A DNA stretch of 22,128 nt from a virus: positions 1 through 22,128 of the IMG/VR virus record IMGVR_UViG_3300010392_001217; one strand, written 5' to 3'. The notes under the pieces were generated by a model. The model made no database searches. It was not told the origin of the DNA and was given only the letters and a program-made list of their open reading frames with translations. Numbering within the stretch: the stretch's first letter is position 1; the number at the start of each line of letters is the position of its first letter. The position numbers were made by a program, and so were the translations under genes. This document shows, piece after piece, positions 3,534 through 21,763 of this stretch.

Positions 3534-3902
3534 CTAACAGTTCGGGGATTGATCGTTCCCCACCAGGATGTAGTGGGGAACCGCTTTCTCGCTGTCGGAT
3601 CGGTCCAGCTGATGGAACCGCAGGTGCTTACCGCAGACCTTCCGCAACGAGTTGAATTTGTCGAAATAGAAAACGCGATCTGGAAAGATCGCCGGGCCAG
3701 TCACCTGGAAGCCGGCCTGCAGAGACTCACCGCCAGGGATGACGCCGACGATCTCGCCGTAAGCCGACTGATAAGCGCCTGGCAGGACCACCAGGTACAC
3801 GTCGGATCCGGCTGCCACCAGGTAGCGATCGCGCGATCGGTCCTGTGCGATCGCCGGCAGGGTGACCAGGATTAAGATGATCAGAAACCTGGCCATGATC
3901 AC
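3534..3902 (-). CDS. Putative secreted or periplasmic phage protein
   Basis: Up to 122 residues. Either GTG 3902 (GTGA overlap with the upstream stop) or ATG 3896 could be the start; no strong ribosome-binding site separates them, suggesting coupling. MARFLIILILVTLPAIAQ is a textbook Sec signal peptide: Arg, then a long hydrophobic core, then an AIA-Q cleavage site. The mature part has mainly beta-type sequence (RYLVAAGSDVYLVVLPGAYQ) and two cysteines near the C-terminus that could form a disulfide. It is encoded second in the leftward operon, so it would be exported early. No family recognised. A periplasmic exclusion or host-modifying factor is possible but inferred only from location and signal peptide. 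Confidence 0.65.
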   Translation of the reverse strand: MIMARFLIILILVTLPAIAQDRSRDRYLVAAGSDVYLVVLPGAYQSAYGEIVGVIPGGESLQAGFQVTGPAIFPDRVFYFDKFNSLRKVCGKHLRFHQLDRSDSEKAVPHYILVGNDQSPNC

Positions 3903-4484: not shown

Positions 4485-5099
4485 TTAGGTGGTGAAGTCC
4501 TGGAACAGGACGGCATATTCCACTTTGCCGATGCACTTTGCCTCGGGGTCGGTGATCGTGCCGTAGTCTTTATTGATCGCCTGTAGGATTTTCTCCGGTC
4601 CATTTTTCCTGAAACGCCTGCATACTACCTCTCCGTCGGCCAGGTTGAATATTCCTATTTTCCCTGCCGATATGGATTTTGAGGGACGGACAATCAGGGT
4701 GGCACCTTCCGGGATAGAGCCTGCCTCGTCACCGTGCATCGAGTCATCTTGCATGATCGTGGCAAACCAGTTGCTTTCCACGACGCCGTAGAACAGCGTG
4801 AAGGTGTCGACGGATTTCAACGATCTTGGAAAGTTCGAGATTTGCTTGTCGGTGAGTAACGGCAGGCTGTTTATCTGGGGTTCCGTGTTGCCGTCCGGGG
4901 AGTGGTGCTGGTTACCGAATCGTAGCCAGCCGGCGTTGACGCCGATTACCTGTGCAATTTTCTCGATTCGTCGAGGGTTCAGGACCTCTCCTGACTCGAT
5001 TTGATTGATTGCCTGTTGTGATAAGCCAACGGCATCGCCCAGTTGTTTTTGAGTGATACCAGCCTTGATTCTGGCGTCACGAAGTCTCTTCCCTAACAT
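4485..5099 (-). CDS. cI: CI-like repressor: XRE-type HTH plus S24 (LexA-like) domain
   Basis: 204 residues, ATG 5099, preceded by AAGGTG. Residues 1-58 are an XRE/Cro-CI helix-turn-helix (ARIKAGITQKQLGDAVGLSQ, then QAINQIESGE). Residues about 100-200 are a peptidase S24 domain, with the nucleophile region MQDDSMHGDE (Ser120) and the strand DGEVVCRRFRKNG. When this strand is aligned with lambda CI (EFTFKKL, Lys192), the catalytic Lys position is Arg161 here. The linker (64-99) contains no Ala-Gly self-cleavage pair. The protein therefore looks like a DNA-binding dimer with a possibly cleavage-dead C-terminal domain, implying an inducing signal other than simple RecA-stimulated self-cleavage. 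It diverges from cro, with operators between, and should maintain lysogeny by repressing both early promoters and controlling itself through the operator in its leader. Confidence 0.9.
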   Translation of the reverse strand: MLGKRLRDARIKAGITQKQLGDAVGLSQQAINQIESGEVLNPRRIEKIAQVIGVNAGWLRFGNQHHSPDGNTEPQINSLPLLTDKQISNFPRSLKSVDTFTLFYGVVESNWFATIMQDDSMHGDEAGSIPEGATLIVRPSKSISAGKIGIFNLADGEVVCRRFRKNGPEKILQAINKDYGTITDPEAKCIGKVEYAVLFQDFTT

Positions 5100-8060: not shown

Positions 8061-8499
8061 GTTTGATCAGGAGCGCTACAAGGAACACATGCAAGATTGG
8101 GCAGACTACGTGCGACGGGTCGATGGCCATCAGTCGGGCTCGTTCGGCACCGCCAGCGCCATGCCAAACCGCCTGGGGTTCTACCGGGGTGGCCAGGAGA
8201 ACATCCTGCGGAAGAAGCCCTACACAGCCCGAGGCAGGCAATCCGAATCCGATGCCCCGAAGCAGTTCTATCCCGAGGGCTTCGACACCGAAGAATTTAT
8301 CAGCATGGCAGTGGACAACCTGCGCCAGGCAAACCCAGGCGCCGCCGCCGCCGTTGAGCAGCAATTTCTGAAGCGTGGAGCCAGCTCTGAAAAAGCAGAG
8401 CGACTCGGCATCACCCTGCCGCTGTACAAGAATCGCTTGGCCATCGCCAAGACCTACATCTGCGCCTACATGCGTGGACTGAAGCAAAAAACGACGTAG
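8038..8499 (+). CDS. Putative Q-type late antiterminator
   Basis: 153 residues from ATG 8038 (MASVLLVKFDQERYKEHMQD); ATG 8023 is an alternative. Residues about 108-145 (EQQFLKRGASSEKAERLGIT, then LPLYKNRLAIAKTYICAYMR) form a sigma-region-4-like helix-turn-helix: G-x-S-x-x-x-A-x-x-LGI-x-x-x-x-Y-x-x-R-L-x-x-A. This is the recognisable part of phage Q-type antitermination proteins. It is the last early gene. It is followed directly by a promoter (8537-8565) and an intrinsic terminator (8608-8640), the expected target of such a protein. The N-terminal half contains a polar region without known motif. The alternative is a different late-gene activator; the downstream promoter-terminator pair favours antitermination. 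Confidence 0.65.
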   Translation: MASVLLVKFDQERYKEHMQDWADYVRRVDGHQSGSFGTASAMPNRLGFYRGGQENILRKKPYTARGRQSESDAPKQFYPEGFDTEEFISMAVDNLRQANPGAAAAVEQQFLKRGASSEKAERLGITLPLYKNRLAIAKTYICAYMRGLKQKTT

Positions 8500-8536
8500 G
8501 CCCGTCAAATCCGCGAGATTTTATTTTTTCAAACTA

Positions 8537-8565
8537 TTTACATCAAAAGATAATCTTCTTACTAT
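8537..8565 (+). promoter_or_regulatory. Late promoter (PR'-like)
   Basis: TTTACA (8537-8542) and TACTAT (8560-8565) are 17 bases apart, each one or two changes from consensus, in the only AT-rich gap of the rightward half. Transcription would start near 8572, giving a leader of about 65 bases that ends in the terminator at 8608-8640. Confidence 0.65.
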
Positions 8566-8607
8566 CAGGAGCTATATTGTCACCAGAGGTGGCGGCAGTT
8601 CCTTTTC

Positions 8608-8640
8608 AAGCCCGGTGCGCACAGCGTCCCGGGCTTTTTT
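8608..8640 (+). terminator. Intrinsic terminator in late leader (tR'-like)
   Basis: AAGCCCGG (8608-8615) pairs with CCGGGCTT (8629-8636) around a 13-base loop and runs into six T. It ends exactly at the base before the first late ATG (8641). In the absence of an antiterminator, late transcription should stop here. Confidence 0.85.
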
Positions 8641-8949
8641 ATGCCCGAAAATATGTGCTTCACAGACACCGAAAAGAGAGACCTGATCAACAAGGTCAAC
8701 CAGCACGACGCTGACCTCTCGAACATTCGGACCACTATCCGAGTCTCTGTCACGTGCGCTTCCGTGTTCATGGGAATTATCATTAGCGGAGCCAGTTGGT
8801 ACCTGAGTGACAAGCTGGAACAGTTGGATCCCCTGCTGATGAGTGATCGTGAGACCACGGTGGTTGTAGATCGTCTGGTGGAGGATGTTCGAGAACTCAC
8901 CATCCAGGTGCGAAACATCATTCAACGGCTGGGATCGCTACAACAATGA
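8641..8949 (+). CDS. Single-TM protein, putative holin or lysis accessory
   Basis: 102 residues. ATG 8641 directly follows the T-run of the terminator, and no ribosome-binding site is seen; ATG 8653 is an alternative with no better site. The N-terminus is soluble and charged (TDTEKRDLINKVNQHDADLS), residues 35-54 are one membrane span (VSVTCASVFMGIIISGASWY), and residues 60-100 form a likely coiled coil (VVVDRLVEDVRELTIQVRNI). The first late-gene position, before the DUF5675 and DUF1353 genes, fits a holin or holin partner; the C-terminal coil would lie in the periplasm. No holin family is recognised with certainty. The stop overlaps the next ATG by 4 bp. Confidence 0.6.
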   Translation: MPENMCFTDTEKRDLINKVNQHDADLSNIRTTIRVSVTCASVFMGIIISGASWYLSDKLEQLDPLLMSDRETTVVVDRLVEDVRELTIQVRNIIQRLGSLQQ

Positions 8950-9449
8950 CCGCAGAGGAATCGCCGCAAGCAGAATTCACTTACAAGTTAATGCGCTTCA
9001 GCAGCGCGCCGTGCAGCACAGAAAGCCTGCTGATGGCAGGGTGTGAAGAGGGGGACATGCTGTTCCGCTGCTTCGCCCTCGAGGATGAGCACCGAGACGT
9101 CAAGGTGGCAGGCAAGACCCGGATCCCCGCCGGCCGGTACGAAATCAAACCGCGCACCAAGGGCATGCTGTATCTGGAATTGAAGAAAAAGTACCCCTGG
9201 CACGACAAGGGCATGCTGTGGCTGCAGAACGTGCCAGGGTTCAACTGGATATATTTGCATAGTGGCAACCGCCACGGCGACACCAGCGGCTGCATCCTCG
9301 TCGGTGACAGCCTGGTGTCAAACGTTGAAGAGGTGGGCGAGGGCTTTGTCAGCTATTCGGTGAACGCCTACCGCCGGCTCTACAACGAGATCCACGGGCT
9401 GCTTGAGAACAAGGTCAGAGTGTTTCTTCTCATCGAGGACCTGGCATGA
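8946..9449 (+). CDS. DUF5675 family protein, candidate cell-wall enzyme
   Basis: 167 residues, ATGA overlap with the preceding gene. The central part matches DUF5675: FRCFALEDEHRDVKVAGKTR, then IPAGRYEIKPRTKG, then LWLQNVPGFNWIYLHSGNRH and GDTSGCILVGDSLV. Conserved features are the IPAG-x-Y strand, the NVPG-F/R-x-x-I-x-(I/L)HSGN motif (His105) and DTxGCI-x-xG (Cys116). The His and Cys with S/T-x-GC recall the active site of YkuD-type L,D-transpeptidases, although spacing differs, so a peptidoglycan-acting role is possible but unproven. It sits in the lysis position, and no lysozyme, amidase or peptidase of a known endolysin family is visible nearby. The true function of the family is not established. 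Confidence 0.75.
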   Translation: MTAEESPQAEFTYKLMRFSSAPCSTESLLMAGCEEGDMLFRCFALEDEHRDVKVAGKTRIPAGRYEIKPRTKGMLYLELKKKYPWHDKGMLWLQNVPGFNWIYLHSGNRHGDTSGCILVGDSLVSNVEEVGEGFVSYSVNAYRRLYNEIHGLLENKVRVFLLIEDLA

Positions 9450-9892
9450 CTGGTGGCGCCTACTACATCGACGAGCTGCACGCGCGAGCCGTCGACAACG
9501 GGTGGGAGCTGACCAAGAAGCTGACGTTTTATTCAGCGGAACTGAACAGGTTTATCACAGCTTTTCCCGGGTTCTTTACCGACCTGGCCAGCGTCCCCAG
9601 ACCGCTGCGCGCCATTGTCCCGGTGGCCAACAGTGTCTGGCGCCGTGCGGCGGTCACCCACGATCTGCTGTGCGACCCCATCACCCAGCAGTCCATGGGA
9701 ATTACCCAGACCCAGGCAGACGCGGTTCTGCGGGAAGCCATGATATGCCTGGGGGTGCCGGCCAGGCGGGCGCAGATCGTCTGGTTCTTTGTCCGGATCT
9801 ACCAGGCAACCTGGGGTAACCCAAAACGTAAAACAATCAGGCAGTCGACGAGGCTATGGAACAAATTTTCAAACTGGTGGCGCTCGAAATGA
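9446..9892 (+). CDS. DUF1353 family phage protein
   Basis: 148 residues, ATGA overlap with the previous gene. DUF1353 hallmarks are present: FITAFPGFFTDLASVPRPLR with the invariant TDLASVPR at 45-52, AAVTHDLLCD with HDxL at 72-75, and an acidic helix QADAVLREAMICLGVP with the AD-x-x-(F/L)-x-EA-(M/L) pattern. The C-terminus is basic and aromatic (RLWNKFSNWWRSK), possibly membrane-associated. DUF1353 genes are common near phage lysis and tail genes; the Asp and His residues suggest a metal site, but no activity is established. Its stop overlaps the ATG of the next gene. Confidence 0.8.
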   Translation: MTGGAYYIDELHARAVDNGWELTKKLTFYSAELNRFITAFPGFFTDLASVPRPLRAIVPVANSVWRRAAVTHDLLCDPITQQSMGITQTQADAVLREAMICLGVPARRAQIVWFFVRIYQATWGNPKRKTIRQSTRLWNKFSNWWRSK

Positions 9893-12429
9893 ACAAGCTT
9901 GTCTTTCTCGTGCTGATGTTGCCCTCCCTGGTGTTTGGCCAGGATGTGTGTGAGGCCATTTCCATTGGTGGACCGACAACAGTGGCAGACGGTGCCTGGT
10001 CGGATCCGGCGACCTGGGGCGGCGCTGTGCCCGGAGCTGGTGAAAACGCGGAGCTCCGTCACGCGGTTACCGTCACTGATGCCACCATCGGGCAGCTGCT
10101 GGTGTGGGGCGATCTATCCGTAAATGGTCAACTTAACGCCAGTGGTTCAGTCGTTGTTTGCCCGGGTGGCTCCCTGGCTGGTGTCCGTGGGCAGATCGCC
10201 TTCGACGTCGACGATGATCAGCTGTCCGTAGGCAATACCCAGCCTGGCCCCGTGGCATCGATGCCGGATTTCCATCCGGACGATATCGGTTTGTGGGTTG
10301 TGGGTGGCAGCGTGGATCTGGCCGGCCCCGAGGTGACCGCCTGGGTGGATGTGGATCCTGCAGGCCAGCTCACCGACTTCGAGTATGGCTTGCGGCGCGC
10401 CGAAGCAATAAGCCCTGCAGGGACAGCGACACTGGCATCGATCCCGGTGGGCTGGATCCCGGGCGACCAGCTGGTCATCACCACCGAGCAGGGCCAGAGC
10501 AGCCAGGCTACCCTGGATGCAATTGACGGCCGACAAATTGAATTCACCGCCGAGACGGCACTGACTGGCTACGCGCTCGAGTACCAGGGCACCGTGGTCG
10601 TGCCGAAGATCGGCAACTTGTCCCGTCGCTTCCAGGTAGTCAGCCGCCAGGTAACACCAGGCAGCACCAATCACCGCGCCCACGTCATTGCCATGGGCGG
10701 CGCCACGGTCAACCTGCGCTACGTTGAGTTTCGCAACCTGGGGCCCCGGGGGATCCTTGGCAGGTATCCGGTGCATCTGCACCTGCTGCAGGAGACCACC
10801 GCAGCCGTGGTGGGCAACTCGATCTGGCAGGACGTGGCAGAAGGCGGTAACCGCTGGATCTCGATCCACGCCACCCAGGGCGCCACGGTAAGTGGCAATG
10901 TGATGTTTCGCAGCCTGGGCCACGGCGTCTTCATGGAAGACCGCGCGACCTACGACAACCAGGTGACCGGGAATCTGACCGTGGACCTGCAGCACGGGCA
11001 CTTCAATCGACCAGGCAGGGGCGAGAAGGAATTTTACGAGGAAATCCCGGACATTCTGGACGAAGAAATTTTCGGCGGAACCAGCGAGGCCTCGAACCAT
11101 TTCTGGACCCGGCAGGGCAACAACCTGGACGACAACGTGTCGGTGGGTTACATCGACGACTGGCCAGGCAACCGATTCCCGCACTCAAACGGCATGGTGA
11201 TCCTGCCGAGTGACAACCCCGCGCCCACGACAGTGAACAACTACCAATGCCTGGGCTGCGGTGGTTTCGGCACCTGGTCCTACGTGGAACAGCTCGCGGA
11301 ATTCAAGGGCCTGCTGGCCACCTACAACCGCACCAATGGCTGGTACCCGGTACTGAACAACACGCAGCTGACCGATAGCCTGCTGGCCATGAATGGTCGC
11401 TCTACCTCCTGGGCTGGGCAGATATTTCTCAATAGCTCTGACGCGCGGGTAATCAACTCCCACCTGGTGGGCGGCATCGGCGTCCATAGCCATTACTTCG
11501 GCTCAACCACGTTTGAGGGTGGCAGCATCAACGCAGCCTATCCGCTCGACCAGTCATACTGGGAGACCGTGACCCGGGTCAATGGCACCGAGATTACCGC
11601 TACTCAGGATCTGTTTTATCGACGCTACCCCAACCTGAAGCGCAACTCACCGGTACCCGTCTGGTTCACAGGGGCAGCCCTCAACGGAGCGCCGCTGGAT
11701 GGCATGTACGTGCGCACCCCGGAACATGCCCGCTATTTCGAGACTATAGGCAGCCCCAAGTACAGCGGCCAGGAAGTGGTGCCCGAGCAAGGCTACTTCC
11801 TGGAAAAGGCAGTGATCCCCGGCCTGGGCTACTACGGCACCGCCTACTACCGCTCAGTGACTCCGGTCGGCGAGCAAGAGGGGCAGGCCTCCTACCCGTA
11901 CGAACACGAGGCAGGCTACAACGCCAGCATTGCCGCGGGAAATCTTGGCTACCCGCATGCGTTCCCCGCAGGGCAGTACGTGGTCCGCTACTACCGCTCC
12001 AAGGGCGGGGAGCTGGTCCGGGAAGAGACTGTGCAGCTGGGTGACGCTGCGCCGCCACCCAATACTCCACCGGTCGCTATGATCGGGTTGTCGCAATCGG
12101 TCTTTACTGACACCGACGGGGAACCCGGTGAAACGATTGATTTAGCCGGCACGGCAGAAGATGCCGACGGCGTGGTTGAGATTGTGGAGTGGCTGCTCGA
12201 CGGTGAGCTGGTCAGCACCCTCCTGGAAGCCCAAGTGCTTGTCAGTGATGGCGAGCACGACCTGGAGCTGCACGTGACGGACGACGACGGTGACACCGCC
12301 ATCGATGCCGCCACCATCACGGTGGAGCCGGCACCGGTAGAACCGCCCGAGGTGATCCTGAAGGAAGACATACTGCAGATCCTCGAGGACGGCTTCGACG
12401 GCATTCTGGATCAGATTCGGGCGCTGTAG
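9889..12429 (+). CDS. Secreted G8-domain beta-helix protein (CEMIP/TMEM2-like) with C-terminal Ig/PKD-like domain
   Basis: 846 residues from ATG 9889, which overlaps the upstream stop (ATGA); an in-frame ATG at 9856 would put 11 residues before the signal. MNKLVFLVLMLPSLVFGQ is a clear Sec signal peptide with cleavage after FG. Residues about 35-150 form a G8 domain (ADGAWSDPATWGGAVPGAGE, then IGQLLVWGDLSVNGQLNAS). Next comes a right-handed beta-helix with family landmarks GRYPVHLHLL (about 290-299) and GHGVFMEDRATYDNQVTGN (about 344-362), matching the G-(K/R)-YP-(I/V)-H-(F/L)-H and GHxxFxED-x-x-x-x-N patterns of CEMIP/TMEM2 hyaluronidases and fibrocystin. Residues about 725-815 are PKD/Ig-like (DAAPPPNTPPVAMIGLS; DLELHVTDDDGDTA). 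It probably binds or cleaves a polysaccharide outside the cell. A tail spike is less likely because of the signal peptide; a conversion or biofilm-related factor is possible. Confidence 0.75.
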   Translation: MNKLVFLVLMLPSLVFGQDVCEAISIGGPTTVADGAWSDPATWGGAVPGAGENAELRHAVTVTDATIGQLLVWGDLSVNGQLNASGSVVVCPGGSLAGVRGQIAFDVDDDQLSVGNTQPGPVASMPDFHPDDIGLWVVGGSVDLAGPEVTAWVDVDPAGQLTDFEYGLRRAEAISPAGTATLASIPVGWIPGDQLVITTEQGQSSQATLDAIDGRQIEFTAETALTGYALEYQGTVVVPKIGNLSRRFQVVSRQVTPGSTNHRAHVIAMGGATVNLRYVEFRNLGPRGILGRYPVHLHLLQETTAAVVGNSIWQDVAEGGNRWISIHATQGATVSGNVMFRSLGHGVFMEDRATYDNQVTGNLTVDLQHGHFNRPGRGEKEFYEEIPDILDEEIFGGTSEASNHFWTRQGNNLDDNVSVGYIDDWPGNRFPHSNGMVILPSDNPAPTTVNNYQCLGCGGFGTWSYVEQLAEFKGLLATYNRTNGWYPVLNNTQLTDSLLAMNGRSTSWAGQIFLNSSDARVINSHLVGGIGVHSHYFGSTTFEGGSINAAYPLDQSYWETVTRVNGTEITATQDLFYRRYPNLKRNSPVPVWFTGAALNGAPLDGMYVRTPEHARYFETIGSPKYSGQEVVPEQGYFLEKAVIPGLGYYGTAYYRSVTPVGEQEGQASYPYEHEAGYNASIAAGNLGYPHAFPAGQYVVRYYRSKGGELVREETVQLGDAAPPPNTPPVAMIGLSQSVFTDTDGEPGETIDLAGTAEDADGVVEIVEWLLDGELVSTLLEAQVLVSDGEHDLELHVTDDDGDTAIDAATITVEPAPVEPPEVILKEDILQILEDGFDGILDQIRAL

Positions 12430-13127
12430 TGACCGCCCCGGTTATCGAAAATTTTTCAACGTTCAAACAGGAAGAAACCACAGCCCTTGCCGTCAATGAC
12501 CCGTCGGGTGTCTCTGTCGGTGACCTGCTGCTGCTGCCAATCAACGCCGGTGACAGCACCGTTGCTTTCGGCGGCCTGAGCAACTTCACGTCGATAGCTG
12601 ATGACACGTATTCGTTCGGTGTCGCCCGCTCGGGGTTGTACTACCGAATAGCGGATCGGACTGCCGCCGATTCGGTGACCATCACACGGGCCAGCGCCCA
12701 GTGGACCGCCGCGACGATGTACCGGATCAGCGGCGTAGACACGGAAAACCCGATCCACAAAAGCACACTCTCTGCAGATCGGTTCAACGGGGATCCGCTC
12801 ACCTCGGACTCAGTAACAACGACGGTTGATGACTGCCTGATCATGGTCTTCTCGGGATCCTCAATCTGTAAGATTGGGTCGACCTTCACCGTCAGTGAGG
12901 GCTCACTGGACCAGCACGAAGACTGCTTCCCGTTCCTGATGGCGAATAAGGCACTTACCGGCCAGGCCACCGACGGGGACTGGGACTTTGCGGTAAGCGG
13001 CGCTGGCATCTACCAGCGGACCCAGTTTATGACCATTGCAATCGCACCTGGTGCGGCGCCAGCTGGCAGGTCGGTTAATTCAAGCCTTATTCACCGCATG
13101 CCCATGCGGCACATGCTTACGAGGTAA
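12429..13127 (+). CDS. Putative fibre or adhesin protein, beta-sandwich type
   Basis: 232 residues from a GTG whose first base is the last base of the previous TAG stop. The sequence (MTAPVIENFSTFKQEETTAL, then VSVGDLLLLPINAGDSTVAF) alternates hydrophobic and polar residues throughout, as in jelly-roll or beta-sandwich proteins found beside phage fibres. Landmarks are GDLLLLPIN and TWxxAxMYRISGVDTENPIH-like strands. The C-terminal SSLIHRMPMRHMLTR is a short basic tail of the kind seen at the end of tail-associated proteins. No enzyme motif. Coupling to the G8 gene suggests joint function at the cell surface or virion tip. Family not recognised with confidence. Confidence 0.6.
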   Translation: MTAPVIENFSTFKQEETTALAVNDPSGVSVGDLLLLPINAGDSTVAFGGLSNFTSIADDTYSFGVARSGLYYRIADRTAADSVTITRASAQWTAATMYRISGVDTENPIHKSTLSADRFNGDPLTSDSVTTTVDDCLIMVFSGSSICKIGSTFTVSEGSLDQHEDCFPFLMANKALTGQATDGDWDFAVSGAGIYQRTQFMTIAIAPGAAPAGRSVNSSLIHRMPMRHMLTR

Positions 13128-13130
13128 ACA

Positions 13131-13586
13131 ATGCGACGCTACTCCGTTTCGTTCACTGAAGTGTCAGTTACAGCCCAGCAGGACCTGTTTCAGCTGGAAG
13201 CCAACACCGTGCCGCTCATCCTGCTTGGCGTGTTTCTCAGCCAGTCGGGTGACGTGGGTGACGCCGAGGCAGAAGGCCTTTCGATTCAGATTGCCCGGGT
13301 CACTGACGCGGTGACCAACGACGTGGCAGAAGTTCTCCTTGACGGTGGTGACGGCGCTGCCAACGCGGACCTGGCAATCAACGAGACCACCGAGCTGACT
13401 ACCGGGAAAACGGTACTGCATTCGGAGGTCTGGCACGTGCAGAACGGCAGTTTTATCTACCTGCCGACACCTGAAATTCAAATTGTGGGAGAGGTGAACA
13501 ATGCCCTGGTGGTGAATCTGAACACGACGCCAGCTGATGCCCTGGTGATGAGCGGTACCTGTTATTTCGCTGAAATGGGCAGTTAA
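13131..13586 (+). CDS. Putative minor structural or fibre-associated protein
   Basis: 151 residues, ATG 13131 with GAGG upstream. The sequence (MRRYSVSFTEVSVTAQQDLF, QLEANTVPLILLGVFLSQSG) is beta-rich, with GEVNNALVVNLNTTPADALV near the end, resembling small phage structural proteins built as a single beta-sandwich. No signal peptide, membrane span or catalytic motif. It is in the fibre-like block between the G8 gene and the repeat protein. Exact place in the virion unknown. Confidence 0.6.
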   Translation: MRRYSVSFTEVSVTAQQDLFQLEANTVPLILLGVFLSQSGDVGDAEAEGLSIQIARVTDAVTNDVAEVLLDGGDGAANADLAINETTELTTGKTVLHSEVWHVQNGSFIYLPTPEIQIVGEVNNALVVNLNTTPADALVMSGTCYFAEMGS

Positions 13587-13588
13587 CC

Positions 13589-14935
13589 ATGGGTTATGGC
13601 GTTTTCCGGCGCCGGCCCTGGCATCACTACTACCTGAGACGCCGGCCTGCAACCAGGCCGTTTAAGGCTGCCACCGGCACAATCGCCAGCAGCGCGGTTG
13701 CCTCGGCATCGCTGTCGACGCTCTCTGGCAGGCTTACCCAGGTCCAGGCCCAGGCTGAAGGGGGGTTCTCGGAGCAGCACACCACTGCCAGGAACCCGGG
13801 CCTGGACACCCAGGCAGCCGGCGGCAGTGTCTATCAGCACACCAGCAGCCGCTCCCGGAGCATCAGCAGCCAGGCGCAAAGTGACGATAGTCACCAACAC
13901 GCCACGGGCAGGAATGGGCAAGGGGTTGCCGAGGCAGTCGGCTCGACCCAGGTTGTTCACACAACCGCCAGGTCAGGCCAGATTGCCAGCACGGCCAGCT
14001 CGTCGACGAGCGTCAGCGGATCCGCCGCACCATCGCGGTCTACGTCGGCCGAGGCGAGCTCGTCAACGGTCTTCGTCCACACGACGAGCCGTAGCAATCA
14101 GCTGAGCACCACGGCAGCTGGTGACGATAGTCACCAACATGCCACGGGCAGGAATGGGCAGGAGGCTTCCGAGGCAGCAGGCTCGACCCAGGTTGTTCAC
14201 ACAACCGCCAGGTCAGGCAGCATTGCCAGCTCAGCAACAGCGACGGCAGCGCTGTCCACGTCGGCCGAGCCGGCGCGCACAACGTCAGCCACCGCGTCTG
14301 GCAGCTCGTCGTTCGCGCACACCACCAGCCGATCTAACCAGGTTGTCACCGCCGCCGACGGTGAGCACACGCTGGAGCACGCCACTGGCAGGACAGCGGC
14401 GACCAGCTCCCAGGGGTCTGGCAGCGGCACTGTGCAGCACAGCCCGGGCAAGACTGGGCAGAGCTCGACCCAGGCAGCCGATGGTAGCGCCCTGGCCCAC
14501 ACGACTGGGCGATCAGGCCAGATTGCCAGTTCAGCCAGCTCAAGTACGAGCATTGAAGGCAGCACTGCGGTCATTGCCTTTGGCAGCATCAGCAGCCAGG
14601 CCACGGCACAGGCATCGCTATCGCATGTTGCCGGCAGGCAGGCCTCTGCCGTCAGCGAGGCGCAAGGCAGCTCGACGAGTGCTCATGAGACCGCCAGGTT
14701 TGGCACGGTCACGACGGCGGCCACTGCTGCCAATGATGAGACCGTCACCACAAGCCGCAGCGGATCCACGGCAAGCCAGGCGTCGGGTGGTTTCGCCTTC
14801 ACCTACATTGGCTACAACGAAGCCGATGTGATCAGCACCATCGCGCTGACCGGCTCGATTGTTTCGGCGGTGAGTGTGACAGGAACAATTACGCAGGAAA
14901 TCGCCGTGAATGGATACCTGGAACCCGCCGCATGA
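13589..14935 (+). CDS. Ser/Thr/Ala/Gly-rich repeat protein (about 20-aa repeats), putative fibre or adhesin
   Basis: 448 residues, ATG 13589. After a basic head (MGYGVFRRRPWHHYYLRRRP) almost the whole chain is repeats of about 20 residues, consensus H-(T/A)-(T/S)-x-R-(S/N)-G-Q-x-(A/S)-(S/T)-x-A-x-(G/S)-S-x-x-x-x. Clear copies begin HATGRNGQGVAEAVGSTQVV, HTTARSGQIASTASSSTSVS and HATGRNGQEASEAAGSTQVV. Two units form a higher-order period of 240 bp; one 110-bp stretch occurs twice at DNA level. The C-terminus (YNEADVISTIALTGSIVSAV, then SVTGTITQEIAVNG) is non-repetitive and beta-like. Such composition suggests a rigid stalk or solenoid in a tail fibre, perhaps a receptor-binding arm whose length can vary. 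No signal peptide, so it is more likely virion-attached than secreted. Recombination between copies could change repeat number. Confidence 0.6.
   Translation: MGYGVFRRRPWHHYYLRRRPATRPFKAATGTIASSAVASASLSTLSGRLTQVQAQAEGGFSEQHTTARNPGLDTQAAGGSVYQHTSSRSRSISSQAQSDDSHQHATGRNGQGVAEAVGSTQVVHTTARSGQIASTASSSTSVSGSAAPSRSTSAEASSSTVFVHTTSRSNQLSTTAAGDDSHQHATGRNGQEASEAAGSTQVVHTTARSGSIASSATATAALSTSAEPARTTSATASGSSSFAHTTSRSNQVVTAADGEHTLEHATGRTAATSSQGSGSGTVQHSPGKTGQSSTQAADGSALAHTTGRSGQIASSASSSTSIEGSTAVIAFGSISSQATAQASLSHVAGRQASAVSEAQGSSTSAHETARFGTVTTAATAANDETVTTSRSGSTASQASGGFAFTYIGYNEADVISTIALTGSIVSAVSVTGTITQEIAVNGYLEPAA
13881..13990 (+). repeat. 110-bp direct repeat, copy 1
   Basis: Differs from copy 2 (14121-14230) at about 10 of 110 positions. 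The offset is exactly 240 bp, four 60-bp (20-codon) units. Each copy begins with the perfect hairpin GTGAC-GATA-GTCAC. The identity at third codon positions suggests recent duplication or gene conversion inside the fibre-like gene. Confidence 0.85.
14121..14230 (+). repeat. 110-bp direct repeat, copy 2
   Basis: Second copy of the repeat at 13881-13990, in the same reading frame, beginning with the same GTGAC-GATA-GTCAC hairpin. Confidence 0.85.
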
Positions 14936-15261: not shown

Positions 15262-15855
15262 ATGCCTTTTACAATTGCAGGACTGAACAAGATGCTGGAC
15301 AACCTGGGTGCCGTGGAAGCGAGGTTGCACGATGGCTACCCGGATGACGCTGGTGACAACGAGCTGACGATTGCCTCACCTGAGATCTACAGCCGCCAGT
15401 CAATCGCGTTTTCTGCCGCATCAGCAGGAGCCATCGATAGCAGCAGCCAGCCTGCCTTCGATGTGCCAGCCGGCACGACACTGCGCTGGGTTTCACTGTG
15501 GGATAACTCCAGCCCACAGACCTGCCTGCAGTTCGCTCCCCTGGGAGAGAGCCAGCTGACCTACACGGTCGACTCTGGCGCAGACACCATTGACTCCACG
15601 TCCCACGGGCTGAGCAATGATGACCTGGTGGTGTTCTATGCAGGCACTGCACCAGGTGGGTTGACGGAAGGCCAGGTCTATCACGTGATCAATGCCAACG
15701 CCAATGACTTCCAGGTGGCAGCCACGCAGGGTGGCTCGGCCATCAACCTGACCGACACCGAGAACGGCTCCAAGCTTTCGCAGATTGTTCCGGAGACCTA
15801 CGGCGCCCAGGGTACCTTCACCCTGTCTGATGCGGATCTGTCACTGACTCGCTAA
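15262..15855 (+). CDS. Putative tail-fibre or virion surface protein
   Basis: 197 residues, ATG 15262 with GAGG before it. The N-terminal half (MPFTIAGLNKMLDNLGAVEA, then ELTIASPEIYSRQSIAFSAA and FDVPAGTTLRWVSLWD) matches a recurrent small phage structural protein in which a short helix, an ARLHDGYP-like loop and a VPAG-x-T strand occur. The C-terminal half (DTIDSTSHGLSNDDLVVFYA, GGLTEGQVYHVINANANDFQ, VAATQGGSAINLTD) is a tail-fibre repeat-like domain seen in many phage fibres (HGL-x-x-x-D-x-V; G-x-x-YxV-x-x-A-x-x-x-F). It closes the fibre-like block before the HNH gene. Confidence 0.7.
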   Translation: MPFTIAGLNKMLDNLGAVEARLHDGYPDDAGDNELTIASPEIYSRQSIAFSAASAGAIDSSSQPAFDVPAGTTLRWVSLWDNSSPQTCLQFAPLGESQLTYTVDSGADTIDSTSHGLSNDDLVVFYAGTAPGGLTEGQVYHVINANANDFQVAATQGGSAINLTDTENGSKLSQIVPETYGAQGTFTLSDADLSLTR

Positions 15856-16859: not shown

Positions 16860-18503
16860 ATGAAATCAGGTGTCGAGCGGTGCAACGACTTCGTGGAGGC
16901 CGTACTCAGCGGCAAGCTGGCTGCCCCGGAAACAGTCAAGCAGGCCTGCGCCAGGTACCGGGCCGATTTCGATAATCCCAAATTCATCTTCGATGAGTTC
17001 GCCGCCGATGCGGCTGTCCACAATATCGAGCGGTTCAAACACCCGAAAGGGCGGTGGCAGGGTAAGCCGGTGGTTCTTGAGAACTGGCAGTGCTTTGTCG
17101 TGTGCAATTTATTCGGCTGGAAGCGCAGGGCAACCAAGCTGCGCCGGTTCAGACGGGGTTACCTGCGGGTGCCTCGAAAAAATGGAAAGACGATGCTGGC
17201 AATTCTGATAGCCCTGGTGATGTTCGGGCCCGATATGGAGCCCGGCGCGGAAGTCTACCTGGGCGCCACGGGCCAGGACCAGGCTGACGAGCTGCTGTTC
17301 TACCCGGCTAAATTCATCGTCGAGCAGTCACCGGAGTACAAGAAGCATTTCGGCGTCGAGGTACGTGCAAAAAGCCTGGTGATTCCGGCCAACTTTTCAA
17401 AGTTCCGGTCGGTCATCCGCAAGCCACCGGATGGCAGTAACCCACACTGCGCCATCGTGGATGAATACCACCTGCATGACGACTCGAGCCAGGTGGACAC
17501 GTTCGACACCGGCATGGGTGCGCGTGAAGAGCCCTTGATGCTGATCACGACTACGGCTGGCAGCAACTTGAGCGGACCGTGCAAGGAGTACGACGACGAT
17601 TGCCTCGATCTACTCGAGGGTAAGTTCGAGCACGACTCCCGCTTCGTGATGATCTATGCCCTGGATAAAGACGATTCCTGGGAAGATCTCGAGAGCTGGC
17701 TGAAGGTCAATCCGAATGCCGGCCTGACGGTGGACGTTGAGTTCCTGCAGGACCAGCTCGCCGAGGCCAGGCGTAACCCGAGTAAGCAGAATGAGCTGCG
17801 GACCAAACATGCCAATGAATGGGTGGGGGCAGCCACCACCTGGTTGAACATCCTGCTGTGGCAGCGGCAGTCGAAGCCCAGCCTGTTCGAGAAATTCAGG
17901 GACTGTCCCTGCTACGGCGGGGTTGACCTGGCCACCCGGAACGACGCCAACGCGGTCAGCCTGATTTTCAAGAACGAAGACGGCGAGTATTTCCAGTACA
18001 TCAGGCTCTATGTGCCCGAAGGGGCAGTGCGGAAAAATCCGAAATACAAAACATTCGTCAACAGCGGGGAAATGATTGTCACCCCGGGTGAGGCCACCGA
18101 CCAGGCGCGGATCGAGGAAGACATTCTGGCCATGCAGGAAGAATTCGATGTGCGCGGCTGGGGCTTTGACCCCTACCAGGGCGCGTACATCATGCGGCGC
18201 TGCTACGAGCAGGGCTTGGAGGTCGTTGAGTACGGGAACACGGTGAAGAATATCTCCCCGCCCATGAAAGAGGTCGAGGCCCTGGTCGAGGAAGGCACGT
18301 TCTACAACGACGGCAACGCCGCCATGACCTGGATGGTCGGCAACGTGGTTTGCTTCGTGGACGTGAAAGACAACATCTTCCCGCGAAAGCAGAATCGACA
18401 CGACAAGAAATCCAAAATCGATGGCCCGGTTTCCATGTTCATGGGCGTAGGGATGTGGCTTGCCGACGAAGGCGATGACGAGATCGGGATGACCTATGTT
18501 TAA
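16860..18503 (+). CDS. terL: Terminase large subunit
   Basis: 547 residues, ATG 16860; in-frame upstream extension is blocked by a stop. ATPase domain: Walker A VPRKNGKT (104-111) is the classic HK97/P27 form, and Walker B is CAIVDEYH with D201-E202. A C-motif LITTTAGSN follows. Nuclease domain: GGVDLATRNDANAVSLIFKN (about 351-370) and GFDPYQG (about 434) carry the RNase H-like Asp residues. Length is normal for the family. It cuts the concatemer and drives DNA translocation into the prohead through the portal. The stop overlaps the portal start by 8 bp. Only a weak ribosome-binding site is seen. Confidence 0.95.
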   Translation: MKSGVERCNDFVEAVLSGKLAAPETVKQACARYRADFDNPKFIFDEFAADAAVHNIERFKHPKGRWQGKPVVLENWQCFVVCNLFGWKRRATKLRRFRRGYLRVPRKNGKTMLAILIALVMFGPDMEPGAEVYLGATGQDQADELLFYPAKFIVEQSPEYKKHFGVEVRAKSLVIPANFSKFRSVIRKPPDGSNPHCAIVDEYHLHDDSSQVDTFDTGMGAREEPLMLITTTAGSNLSGPCKEYDDDCLDLLEGKFEHDSRFVMIYALDKDDSWEDLESWLKVNPNAGLTVDVEFLQDQLAEARRNPSKQNELRTKHANEWVGAATTWLNILLWQRQSKPSLFEKFRDCPCYGGVDLATRNDANAVSLIFKNEDGEYFQYIRLYVPEGAVRKNPKYKTFVNSGEMIVTPGEATDQARIEEDILAMQEEFDVRGWGFDPYQGAYIMRRCYEQGLEVVEYGNTVKNISPPMKEVEALVEEGTFYNDGNAAMTWMVGNVVCFVDVKDNIFPRKQNRHDKKSKIDGPVSMFMGVGMWLADEGDDEIGMTYV

Positions 18504-19794
18504 GATTTTCAGAGCGTCCAAGCTGGAGCAGCGACTCGAAGAGCTCGAGGGCCAACTGAGAGAAAAAGAGGAACAGGGCGGCCGCGACTTCCTGGAAGTG
18601 ATCGAAGCGCTGGATGAGCAATTCTCATCGTCAAACCCGAGCGGGATCCACGTGACCACCGCGCGCGCCATCCAGCAGCCCACCGTCTGGGCTTGTGCGC
18701 GGATTATCTCGGAGATCATGGCATCACTGCCTATCCTGGTGCAGACGCGCCAGGGTGGCAGCTGGAAGACGGCAGAGCAGCACGATGCCCAGGAGCTGCT
18801 GTACGAGCCGAATGAGTGGATGACCAAGCACGAGCTGATCTCGTTCCTGGTGGTCTGGTCGGAGCTGCGGGGTAACAGTTTCCTGTTCAAGAACACGGTG
18901 GCCAGCGGCAAGGTGAAGCGCTTGCTGCCCCTGGAAGGCAACTCGGTGACCGTGGATATGTCCTCGGACTGGAAGCTGAGATACCAGGTCGGCTCGCTCC
19001 AGCAAAGTGGAATCTACGACGGCCGGAAAATTTTCCATCACCGCAACTTCGGCGTCGAAAGCCACGTGGGTCTATCCACCATCGGCAACCACCGAATGGG
19101 TATTTCCGTGGCGCTTCAGCTCCAGGAGCACGCTGCGTCGGCCTACAAGAACGGCCTGCAGACCAGTAAATGGGTATCCGGTAACAAGCCTGCCGGCAAA
19201 GATCGGGTCGAGGACCTGAAAAAGCAGCTGGCCAAGTTCCAGGGAGCCACTAACGCCGGGAAGATCCCCTTTATTCCCCACGACTTCACGCTGAATGAGG
19301 CCAAGGGCATCAGTGAGGTGGACGCCCAGTACATCGAATCCAGGAAGATGCAGAAACAGGAAATTGCCTCGATTTTCGGTGTGCCGCTGTTCCTGCTGAA
19401 CGACACGGAGAAATCAACAACCTGGGGATCCGGCCTCGAGGAGTTAAGCCGCTCATTCGTGCGGTATTCCCTGGGTCCCCGCTTTAACCGCCTGTCGGAA
19501 ACCCTGGTCAAGCAGCTGATTTCCGCCAGAGAAAAGCGGACCACACGCTTTAAGTTTGATACCACCGAATTCACGCTGGGTGAGTTCAAGGAACGGATGG
19601 AAGGCTACAAATCCAGCATTGAAAGCGGTGTTTTCAATCCGAACGAGGCACGGCAAATCGAGGGTTACAACCCACGGGAAGGCGGTGATGAGTACCGCAA
19701 GCCCCTGAACATTGGCATGGACGGTGAGGATCCGGACGACGAGCCTGAACCAGAGCCGGTGCCGGTACCCGACGACGATGAAGACGAAGACTGA
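18496..19794 (+). CDS. Portal protein (HK97 family)
   Basis: 432 residues, ATG 18496. Residues 5-45 are an amphipathic coiled coil (ASKLEQRLEELEGQLREKEE), an unusual extension before the portal core. From about 55 the HK97/phage portal pattern appears: TTARAIQQPTVWACARIISE, IMASLPILV, PNEWMTKHELISFLVVWSEL and RGNSFLFKN. Later GVPLFLLNDTEKSTTWGSGL, then EELSRSFVRYSLGPRF, is the clip/stem-wing region, where the VP-x-x-L and (E/Q)-x-x-xFV-x-xxL-x-P motifs are diagnostic. The C-terminus is very acidic (DGEDPDDEPEPEPVPVPDDD). It forms the twelve-subunit DNA gate at one capsid vertex and binds the terminase. Confidence 0.95.
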   Translation: MFKIFRASKLEQRLEELEGQLREKEEQGGRDFLEVIEALDEQFSSSNPSGIHVTTARAIQQPTVWACARIISEIMASLPILVQTRQGGSWKTAEQHDAQELLYEPNEWMTKHELISFLVVWSELRGNSFLFKNTVASGKVKRLLPLEGNSVTVDMSSDWKLRYQVGSLQQSGIYDGRKIFHHRNFGVESHVGLSTIGNHRMGISVALQLQEHAASAYKNGLQTSKWVSGNKPAGKDRVEDLKKQLAKFQGATNAGKIPFIPHDFTLNEAKGISEVDAQYIESRKMQKQEIASIFGVPLFLLNDTEKSTTWGSGLEELSRSFVRYSLGPRFNRLSETLVKQLISAREKRTTRFKFDTTEFTLGEFKERMEGYKSSIESGVFNPNEARQIEGYNPREGGDEYRKPLNIGMDGEDPDDEPEPEPVPVPDDDEDED

Positions 19795-19805: not shown

Positions 19806-20462
19806 ATGAAAAGAAGGTACGCCGTAAGGCCGCTCGAGATCAAGGCAGCTGATGACGAGGGCAAATTCAGTGGATACGGCTCGGTGTTCGATGTCATCGA
19901 TTCCTATCACGACATTATCGTGCCTGGTGCGTTCGAACAAACCATTGAAGAGCACAAAAAGGCCGGCACGGCGCCGGCGCTGCTGTGGCAGCACCAGTCC
20001 GACAAGCCCATCGGTGTCTGGGAGAAGTTTTCCGAAGACGAGACAGGCCTGCTGATGGAAGGGCAGCTGTTGATGGACGTGCAGCTTGCCAAAGAAGCCA
20101 AATCACTGATCAAGGCCAAGGCAGTGCGCGGCCTGTCGATAGGCTTCACCGTCCCGAAAGGCGGTGAGGAATACGACAAGGAACGCAACGTCTGGATTAT
20201 TAAACAGGTTAACCTGTGGGAGACGTCCATTGTGACGTTTCCTGCCAACAAAGACGCCCAGATTCAGGAGGTAAAACACCTCATTGAATCTGGGCAATTC
20301 CCATCCATTCGCGAATTTGAACGCTATCTCATGCACGACGCTGGGTTTAGTCGGTCACAGGCGCGGACGGTTTTAAATGACGGCTACAAATCGTTACTCA
20401 AGCACGACGCTGAAGACGAAATCTCAGCCAAAATTGATGAAATGATTAAGGAGTTAAGCTAA
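19806..20462 (+). CDS. Prohead maturation protease (HK97 family, S78)
   Basis: 218 residues, ATG 19806 with AGGTGAAG before it. Family landmarks: FSGYGSVFDVIDSYHDIIVP (the G-Y-(A/G)-x-xF-x-x-x-D start), GTAPALLWQHQSDKPIGVWE with catalytic His63, KAVRGLSIGFTVPKGGEEYD with catalytic Ser111 in GLSIGF, and VNLWETSIVTFPANKDAQIQ with the conserved E-T-S-x-V-xFPAN. It cleaves the delta domain from the major capsid protein before DNA packaging. The C-terminal 60 residues (SIREFERYLMHDAGFSRSQA, then DEMIKELS) are a helical tail of the sort used for encapsidation. Its TAA overlaps the capsid ATG (TAATG). Confidence 0.95.
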   Translation: MKRRYAVRPLEIKAADDEGKFSGYGSVFDVIDSYHDIIVPGAFEQTIEEHKKAGTAPALLWQHQSDKPIGVWEKFSEDETGLLMEGQLLMDVQLAKEAKSLIKAKAVRGLSIGFTVPKGGEEYDKERNVWIIKQVNLWETSIVTFPANKDAQIQEVKHLIESGQFPSIREFERYLMHDAGFSRSQARTVLNDGYKSLLKHDAEDEISAKIDEMIKELS

Positions 20463-21763
20463 TGCCAGATCCAGTATTGGAAAAGCTTGGCGAGCTGGAT
20501 AAAACCTTCCGGGGCTTGAATGACAAGACCATGGAAGAGCTCAAAGAGCATGGGACCCAGCTCTCGACCACGGTCGAGAAGCTGGAAAACGTCGAGAAAG
20601 ATATCGACAAACTGGAAGAAGAACACCAGAAGCGCCTGGACGATATCGAGCTGCGTCTCGATACGCCGGCTCAGGATCGCAGTGACATTTCCGACGCGGA
20701 GAAGAAGCACGTCGATGCCTGGGAGGCCTGGATGCGGGCACCGCAAAGCCAGAAGGCCATCAACAGCCTGCTGGAGGCCACCGAGGAAGTCGACCGCGAG
20801 TTCGGCAGGAAAGAGGTCACCACGACCGTCACTGCCTCTGGTGGCTACGCTGTCCCGGAAGTGATCGCCCGCAAGATCGGCGAGAAGGTCCAGGATATCT
20901 CTGACATGCGCCGGCTTGTCCGGGTTCAGCAAGTCGGCACCAGCGACTACAAGGAACTGGTGGACGTCAACGGCGAAGAGTCCGGCTGGGTTGGTGAGAC
21001 CGGTACGCGCAGCGAGACCGGCACACCGCAGCTCGCCGAGTGTGCGCCCACCATGGGCACGCTCTATGCCTATCCCAAGACGACGGAAGAGTCGCTCGAC
21101 GATATCTTCTTCGATGTGCAGGCCTGGCTGATCAGAAAGGCCTCCGTGTCGTTCGCGATCAAGGAAGGCGAAGCGTTCATTACCGGCAACGGCACCAACA
21201 AGCCTACCGGCTTTCTGAATGGTGCCCCGTCGGTACTGGGTGATGAAGAGAGCTCTGGCTCACCGCTGACCCCACGTCCCTACGGCACGATCCAGTACGT
21301 GCCCACCGGATCCGCCTCGGGTTTTCTCAACAACCCGACCGGCTCGCCGCTCTCGTTCGGTGGCGATGTGTTCATCGATATCGAGCAGGAAATGAAGCCC
21401 GCCTACCGGCGCAATGCACGCTACCTGATGAACAAGTCCACGCTGAAGCTTGTGCGCAAGTTCAAGGATTCAGACGGTAACTACGTCTGGCAGCGGAGCA
21501 TGATCCTGGGCCAGCCCAGCACGATCAACGGCTACGCGGTCGAGGAAATGGAAGCGATGCCCAGCGTGGGCTCGAATGCGTTTCCGGTGGCGTTCGGTGA
21601 CTTCGAGGAGGGCTACCTGGCAGTGGATCGGACCGGTCTTCGAATCAGCATCGATTCGAACATCACCACGCCTGGTTACGTGAAGTACTACCTGCGCAAG
21701 CGCCAGGGCGGCAGAGTCTACAACGACGATGCCATCAAGGTGATGAAGTGCGCCACGAGCTGA
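20462..21763 (+). CDS. Major capsid protein (HK97 fold) with N-terminal delta domain
   Basis: 433 residues from ATG 20462 (AGGAG upstream). Residues 1-65 form a long coiled coil (LEKLGELDKTFRGLNDKTME, VEKLENVEKDIDKLEEEHQK), the scaffolding delta domain removed by the protease. The mature part probably begins near 113-120 (GRKEVTTTVTASGGYAVPEV). Core family motifs are GGYAVPEVIARKIGEK, GWVGETGTRSETGTPQLAEC, LYAYPKTTEESLDDIFFDVQ and EAFITGNGTNKPTGFLNG, the last being the F-x-xG-(D/N)-G-x-x-x-P-x-G-(F/I) loop. The P-domain strand GDFEEGYLAVDRTGLRISID lies near the end, and YYLRKRQGGRVYNDDAIKVM is the C-terminal strand. It forms the icosahedral shell. Highest-expression structural gene, followed by a terminator. 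Confidence 0.97.
   Translation: MPDPVLEKLGELDKTFRGLNDKTMEELKEHGTQLSTTVEKLENVEKDIDKLEEEHQKRLDDIELRLDTPAQDRSDISDAEKKHVDAWEAWMRAPQSQKAINSLLEATEEVDREFGRKEVTTTVTASGGYAVPEVIARKIGEKVQDISDMRRLVRVQQVGTSDYKELVDVNGEESGWVGETGTRSETGTPQLAECAPTMGTLYAYPKTTEESLDDIFFDVQAWLIRKASVSFAIKEGEAFITGNGTNKPTGFLNGAPSVLGDEESSGSPLTPRPYGTIQYVPTGSASGFLNNPTGSPLSFGGDVFIDIEQEMKPAYRRNARYLMNKSTLKLVRKFKDSDGNYVWQRSMILGQPSTINGYAVEEMEAMPSVGSNAFPVAFGDFEEGYLAVDRTGLRISIDSNITTPGYVKYYLRKRQGGRVYNDDAIKVMKCATS

Follow-up and report, generated by a model that had tools for sequence, protein, structure and literature searches.

The window, the whole 22,128-base IMG/VR record IMGVR_UViG_3300010392_001217, encoded a G8/CEMIP-like protein of 846 aa at 9889–12429 (+). 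With an alternative in-frame start (ATG at 9856), this protein would be 11 residues longer; the start at 9889 was preferred because it overlaps the upstream stop codon (ATGA), as in the neighbouring genes. Overlaps of 1–4 bases joined all genes between 8641 and 13127, and those at both ends of the CEMIP-like gene were ATGA or TAGTG. At the start of this run, a small protein with one hydrophobic segment (8641–8949, +) was holin-like by position and composition, with no confident family match in Pfam or PHROGs. It was followed by a DUF5675 protein weakly resembling Tlde1/YkuD (8946–9449, +; ATGA-coupled) and a DUF1353 protein (9446–9892, +; phrog_1158, 'tail assembly chaperone'), whose stop codon overlaps the CEMIP-like start in an ATGA. 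Elsewhere, DUF1353 occurs as a 'tail fiber assembly protein' in Caulobacter phage DMCA and, in Pseudomonas phage Bjorn, between lysozyme and terminase. On the other side, the start of a gene for a protein of unassigned family (12429–13127, +) overlapped the stop codon of the CEMIP-like gene. Further downstream were a long, repetitive Ser/Ala/Thr-rich protein (13589–14935, +), fibre-like judging from the sequence itself, and a protein with a tail-fibre module at residues about 90–190 (15262–15855, +). The former (448 aa) carried degenerate repeats (HTTSRS..., HATGRN...) and had no family match. The CEMIP-like gene was placed among tail-fibre genes, with DUF1353/phrog_1158 before it and the tail-fibre-module gene after it. 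Five genes lay between it and position 15855, followed by HNH, TerS (assigned by position and size), TerL (16860–18503, +), portal (18496–19794), protease (19806–20462) and capsid (20462–21763) genes.

A consensus scan, the only promoter search, placed promoter-like sites within 8400–13700 at 8518–8565 alone, just upstream of the holin-like gene, and found none between 8566 and 13700. Since these sites are the sole ones and its neighbours overlap it, the CEMIP-like gene is a member of the late operon rather than a self-contained insertion. A moron (lysogenic conversion gene) with its own flanking promoter and terminator was not supported, given the empty stretch 8566–13700 in the consensus scan and the start and stop overlaps. 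The record was a genuine phage fragment, as evident from its repressor, terminase, portal, protease and capsid. The HTH/S24 repressor was encoded at 4485–5099 (−), and a DnaT-like gene lay ahead of the holin-like gene. No integrase was identified in the 22,128-base fragment, which ends before the genes 3' of the capsid gene. The earlier note had placed the gene in the late operon of a temperate phage; the location between lysis and fibre-like genes was borne out, whereas 'temperate' is therefore a label taken from the repressor only. A protein of 122 aa encoded in the early region (3534–3902, −) began with a strong signal-like segment (MIMARFLIILILVTLPAIAQ) and had no Pfam match. Terminase searches gave no indication of the host: they matched D3-like Pseudomonas phages at 43% and a 5.7-kb viral contig, L008 (IMGVR_UViG_3300010430_002673), whose TerS, TerL, portal, protease and capsid were 99.5–100% identical to those of the window. 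By this identity, L008 is the same phage species, sampled again. In two regions with related terminases (L101, L102), no gene lying between lysis and TerS matched the fibre block of the window.

The Pfam domain CEMIP_beta-hel (PF24606) matched residues 264–420 of the CEMIP-like protein (10678–11148, +) with an E-value of 2e-24 and 87 bits, against a curated cut-off of 27.3 bits. The previously noticed motifs GRYPVHLH (residues 291–298) and GHGVFMED (residues 344–351) were both within this match. The Pfam G8 model did not match the protein at E ≤ 0.1. With a profile restricted to bacterial relatives, a match was obtained at residues 30–83 (9976–10137, +; sequence E 7e-7), corresponding to the N-terminal half of G8 and the first beta-helix turns (pLDDT 84–97 over residues 21–100); the best E-value among 2000 shuffles was 2.1. 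In addition, plasmid-borne homologues annotated 'G8 domain-containing protein' aligned with the window protein from residue 27. The G8 region described earlier was thus recovered as an N-terminal half by the bacterial-only profile and not by Pfam. A PKD/Ig-like beta-sandwich at about residues 726–815 (12064–12333, +), also noticed before, was weak by sequence (E 0.002; Pfam Big_7, E 0.03) but was predicted to fold PKD-like (TMt of about 0.8 against PKD1 of PrtV); in the model it was followed by a C-terminal helix (826–845). The TMEM2 structure 8c6i was also matched, and the family profile found TMEM2 with an E-value of 1.8e-101. Of the CEMIP/TMEM2/fibrocystin superfamily to which the protein had been assigned, the CEMIP/TMEM2 branch held, and fibrocystin in particular was unsupported. 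PHROGs contained no family for the protein.

An AlphaFold2 (AF2) run with 77 sequences was used for the structural model; the single-sequence run had a pLDDT of 33. The pLDDT was mostly 67–97 over residues 20–370, with a low loop at 109–125, and about 85 at 400–420. Residues 425–720 had values <50, and the model was not interpretable there. Residues from about 20 to 420 were predicted with good confidence as a right-handed beta-helix. The comparison with TMEM2 suggested in the earlier note gave the longest structural match found with VIA-align (ectodomain, 8c6i; 452 residues aligned, Z 21.0, 19% identity). TMEM2 belonged to a top group at Z 21, together with AlgG (Z 21.4) and the Dettilon tailspike, and was its most sequence-similar member. 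Other structural neighbours were PL6 and chondroitin lyases, phage tailspikes and the pneumococcal adhesin PfbA. TMEM2 was absent from the first 50 Foldseek matches and was recovered by VIA-align on the same candidates.

All 12 residues of the family's polar cluster were kept by the window protein (H265, R292, Y293, H296, H298, R322, H327, H345, E350, N357, N411 and N416), and all of these except H345 were kept in four of four viral proteins, the window protein being about 20–28% identical to the other three. The spacing of H265, H298, H327 and E350 (about 23–33 residues) fits neighbouring beta-helix rungs, and these four residues may face one cleft. The cluster may be structural rather than catalytic. 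Bacterially conserved positions 205, 227, 240, 354, 398 and 478 were lost in the window protein, so its activity may be altered or gone.

The claim of a signal peptide held by composition: residues 1–35 contained a 10-residue stretch with a mean Kyte–Doolittle value of 2.59, while this value was <1.4 in all except three of the 29 other window genes checked. The Sec-type signal was assigned to residues 1–18 (MNKLVFLVLMLPSLVFGQ; 9889–9942, +) from this composition and from comparison with relatives, most of the bacterial ones having equivalent stretches; by the −3/−1 rule, cleavage would occur near residue 17–18. A hydrophobic N-terminal stretch preceded G8 in 72 of the 84 alignment rows, window and L005 counted in. 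The window protein and its viral relative L005 are mutually 27% identical, and both had a signal-like N-terminus, L005 having lost the start of G8. The retention of this segment in so diverged a pair is the main argument for the predicted export.

L005 was one of three further viral CEMIP proteins (L005, L006 and L007) recovered by an alignment-based motif scan of IMG/VR (about 2.9 million viral contigs). This type of scan was needed, as searching viral and genome collections with single proteins gave no relatives. With five queries (the window protein, L005, L006, a proteobacterial and a planctomycete relative), no CEMIP match was found in 50,697 phage records; L006 matched phage tail-fibre proteins solely through an inserted module (residues 207–310). 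A phage G8/CEMIP protein was likewise not found in the open-access literature. The supposition that described phages lack such a protein thus agreed with the phage records, PHROGs and this literature.

In L005, the CEMIP-like gene lay upstream of TerS/TerL, in the order CEMIP-like, DUF5662, homologue of the window's 12429 protein, fibre-like protein, TerS, TerL and portal, the last three assigned by position and sequence. The 12429 homologue was situated some 1 kb downstream of the CEMIP-like gene and was 27% identical over 172 residues (pairwise E 4e-8); searches with the window's 12429 protein recovered L005 again and nothing else. No sequence homology was found between the window's 14932 gene product and its L005 counterpart (E 0.95), so the synteny consists of the TerS/TerL order together with the CEMIP-like gene and the 12429 homologue. 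The earlier note had asked whether the CEMIP-like gene is always preceded by DUF1353; it is not, since L005 has no such gene directly before its CEMIP-like gene. The L006 and L007 proteins (L006:6329–9364, L007:8945–11992) combined G8 with CEMIP but had no signal-like N-terminus, and their genes came after those for TerL, portal and a fibre-like protein. In both, which belong to TerL–portal structural modules, the CEMIP domain was fused to a tail-fibre module, so these relatives may act in the virion. The L006 module also occurred in the window's 15262–15855 product and in tail fibres of Rhizobium, Sinorhizobium, Bradyrhizobium and Leptospira phages. In both contigs, the gene immediately downstream of the CEMIP-like one (L006:9364–9666, L007:11995–12300) encoded 101 aa beginning with a signal-like segment (MKTLLILSLLSFTALAADQ...), and the two products were 93% identical.

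A motif scan of genomes gave 303 matches, 273 of which encode relatives; the best 80 were mainly from Planctomycetota. Phage-protein queries found no match in the flanks (within 10 kb) of these best 80. In the phylogenetic tree, the window and L005 grouped in one clade (100/99) with long branches, the window's end branch being 2, and L006 and L007 formed a separate clade far from it. Two separate captures by phages are the simplest reading, the long branches leaving the exact placement unsure, and those of the window/L005 clade suggest long residence in phages. A derivation of the window gene from exported bacterial G8/CEMIP proteins was supported.

The earlier observation was confirmed as real, unusual and correctly read in its main lines, and its mechanism is put forward here as a proposal. 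Our preferred explanation, at about even odds, is that the window protein is a Sec-exported, polysaccharide-directed beta-helix protein, produced together with the products of the lysis genes and late structural genes and freed at lysis. Going by gene anatomy only, the CEMIP-like gene would be transcribed in the late operon, its translation coupled to that of its neighbours. The N-terminal signal would carry the product through the inner membrane ahead of holin action, and in the periplasm it would fold into the predicted beta-helix with its conserved R/Y/H/H/H/E cluster, the function of which is putative. At lysis, the protein would reach the surroundings and could bind or cut capsule, exopolysaccharide or another glycan on the surface of the producing cell or its neighbours, which might make the release and spread of progeny easier.

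The main rival, possible but less likely, is a tail spike or fibre: the beta-helix would be carried on the virion to bind a receptor or act as a depolymerase, its hydrophobic N-terminus being a vestige or serving for attachment. The position between the DUF1353 'tail assembly chaperone' and fibre-like genes is consistent with it, as are the tailspikes among the structural neighbours and the occurrence of the domain in L006 and L007 without a signal and with a module known in phage tail fibres. A genuine Sec signal, however, would take the protein out of cytoplasmic virion assembly, the diverged sister L005 retains the signal-like start, and no known particle-binding N-terminal domain was found with Pfam or PHROGs. 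It is unlikely that the protein changes the surface of infected or lysogenic cells by means other than polymer cleavage, such as glycan binding, epimerase-like modification or exclusion of competing phages. The repressor points to a temperate phage, but a gene that has neither a promoter-like site nor a gap to itself is not expected to be expressed in a lysogen; and although the periplasmic epimerase AlgG had the highest structural Z, tied with TMEM2, and the adhesin PfbA also matched, beta-helix matches are common and uninformative on function. A captured host gene of no function for the phage would fit the rarity of such genes (three further viral contigs in IMG/VR), but is very improbable given the intact 846-codon frame, the tight operon coupling, the long branches shared with L005 and the retained cluster.

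Extending the proposed release of an exported protein at lysis to its relatives, we tentatively envisage a phage lineage of Sec-exported CEMIP-type depolymerases that are produced alongside the lysis proteins and are free and non-virion, plus a separate signal-less recruitment as a tail spike, giving soluble and virion-bound forms of the same module for cell-surface polysaccharide. To our knowledge, most of the known phage means against polysaccharide barriers are virion-bound β-helix depolymerases, and an exported CEMIP/TMEM2-type protein would widen this set. The R/Y/H/H/H/E cluster, kept across viral lineages at about 20–30% identity, offers candidate residues for mutation in soluble relatives expressed in bacteria.

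Phage tailspike depolymerases (P22, HK620, CBA120 TSPs, APK16 gp47) share with the window protein the beta-helix fold and the location near fibre-like genes. They carry, as far as we know, no Sec signal, whereas the window protein has a signal-like N-terminus by composition, and no sequence relation between them was found in PHROGs or the phage records. The L006 and L007 proteins have the same CEMIP_beta-hel domain as the window protein and differ in their missing signal, tail-fibre module and separate clade. The likeness to animal CEMIP (HYBID/KIAA1199) and TMEM2 (CEMIP2) lies in the G8 start (in the window protein, the N-terminal half recovered by the bacterial-only profile), the predicted right-handed beta-helix and the motifs GRYPVHxH, H-x-T and GHxxFxED. 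In contrast to both, the window protein is phage-encoded and carries a C-terminal PKD-like domain, and it has a predicted Sec signal instead of a membrane anchor. All reported activity-abolishing substitutions in TMEM2 are in its lectin-like domain 1 (R265/D273/D286; PMC10206443). A counterpart of this domain was absent, TMEM2 residues 167–334 being unmatched in the family profile alignment, and the hyaluronidase activity of TMEM2 is itself disputed (PMC10206443 and PMC10276149 versus PMC10474455); for both reasons, hyaluronan is not supported as a substrate. Bacterial exported G8 domain-containing proteins (Planctomycetota, Verrucomicrobiota, Acidobacteriota, Deinococcota, Pseudomonadota) have, like the window protein, a signal-like N-terminus and a CEMIP beta-helix, with G8 between them (its N-terminal half in the window protein), and are mostly 650–900 aa; compared with them, the window protein is highly diverged and its G8 domain is reduced.
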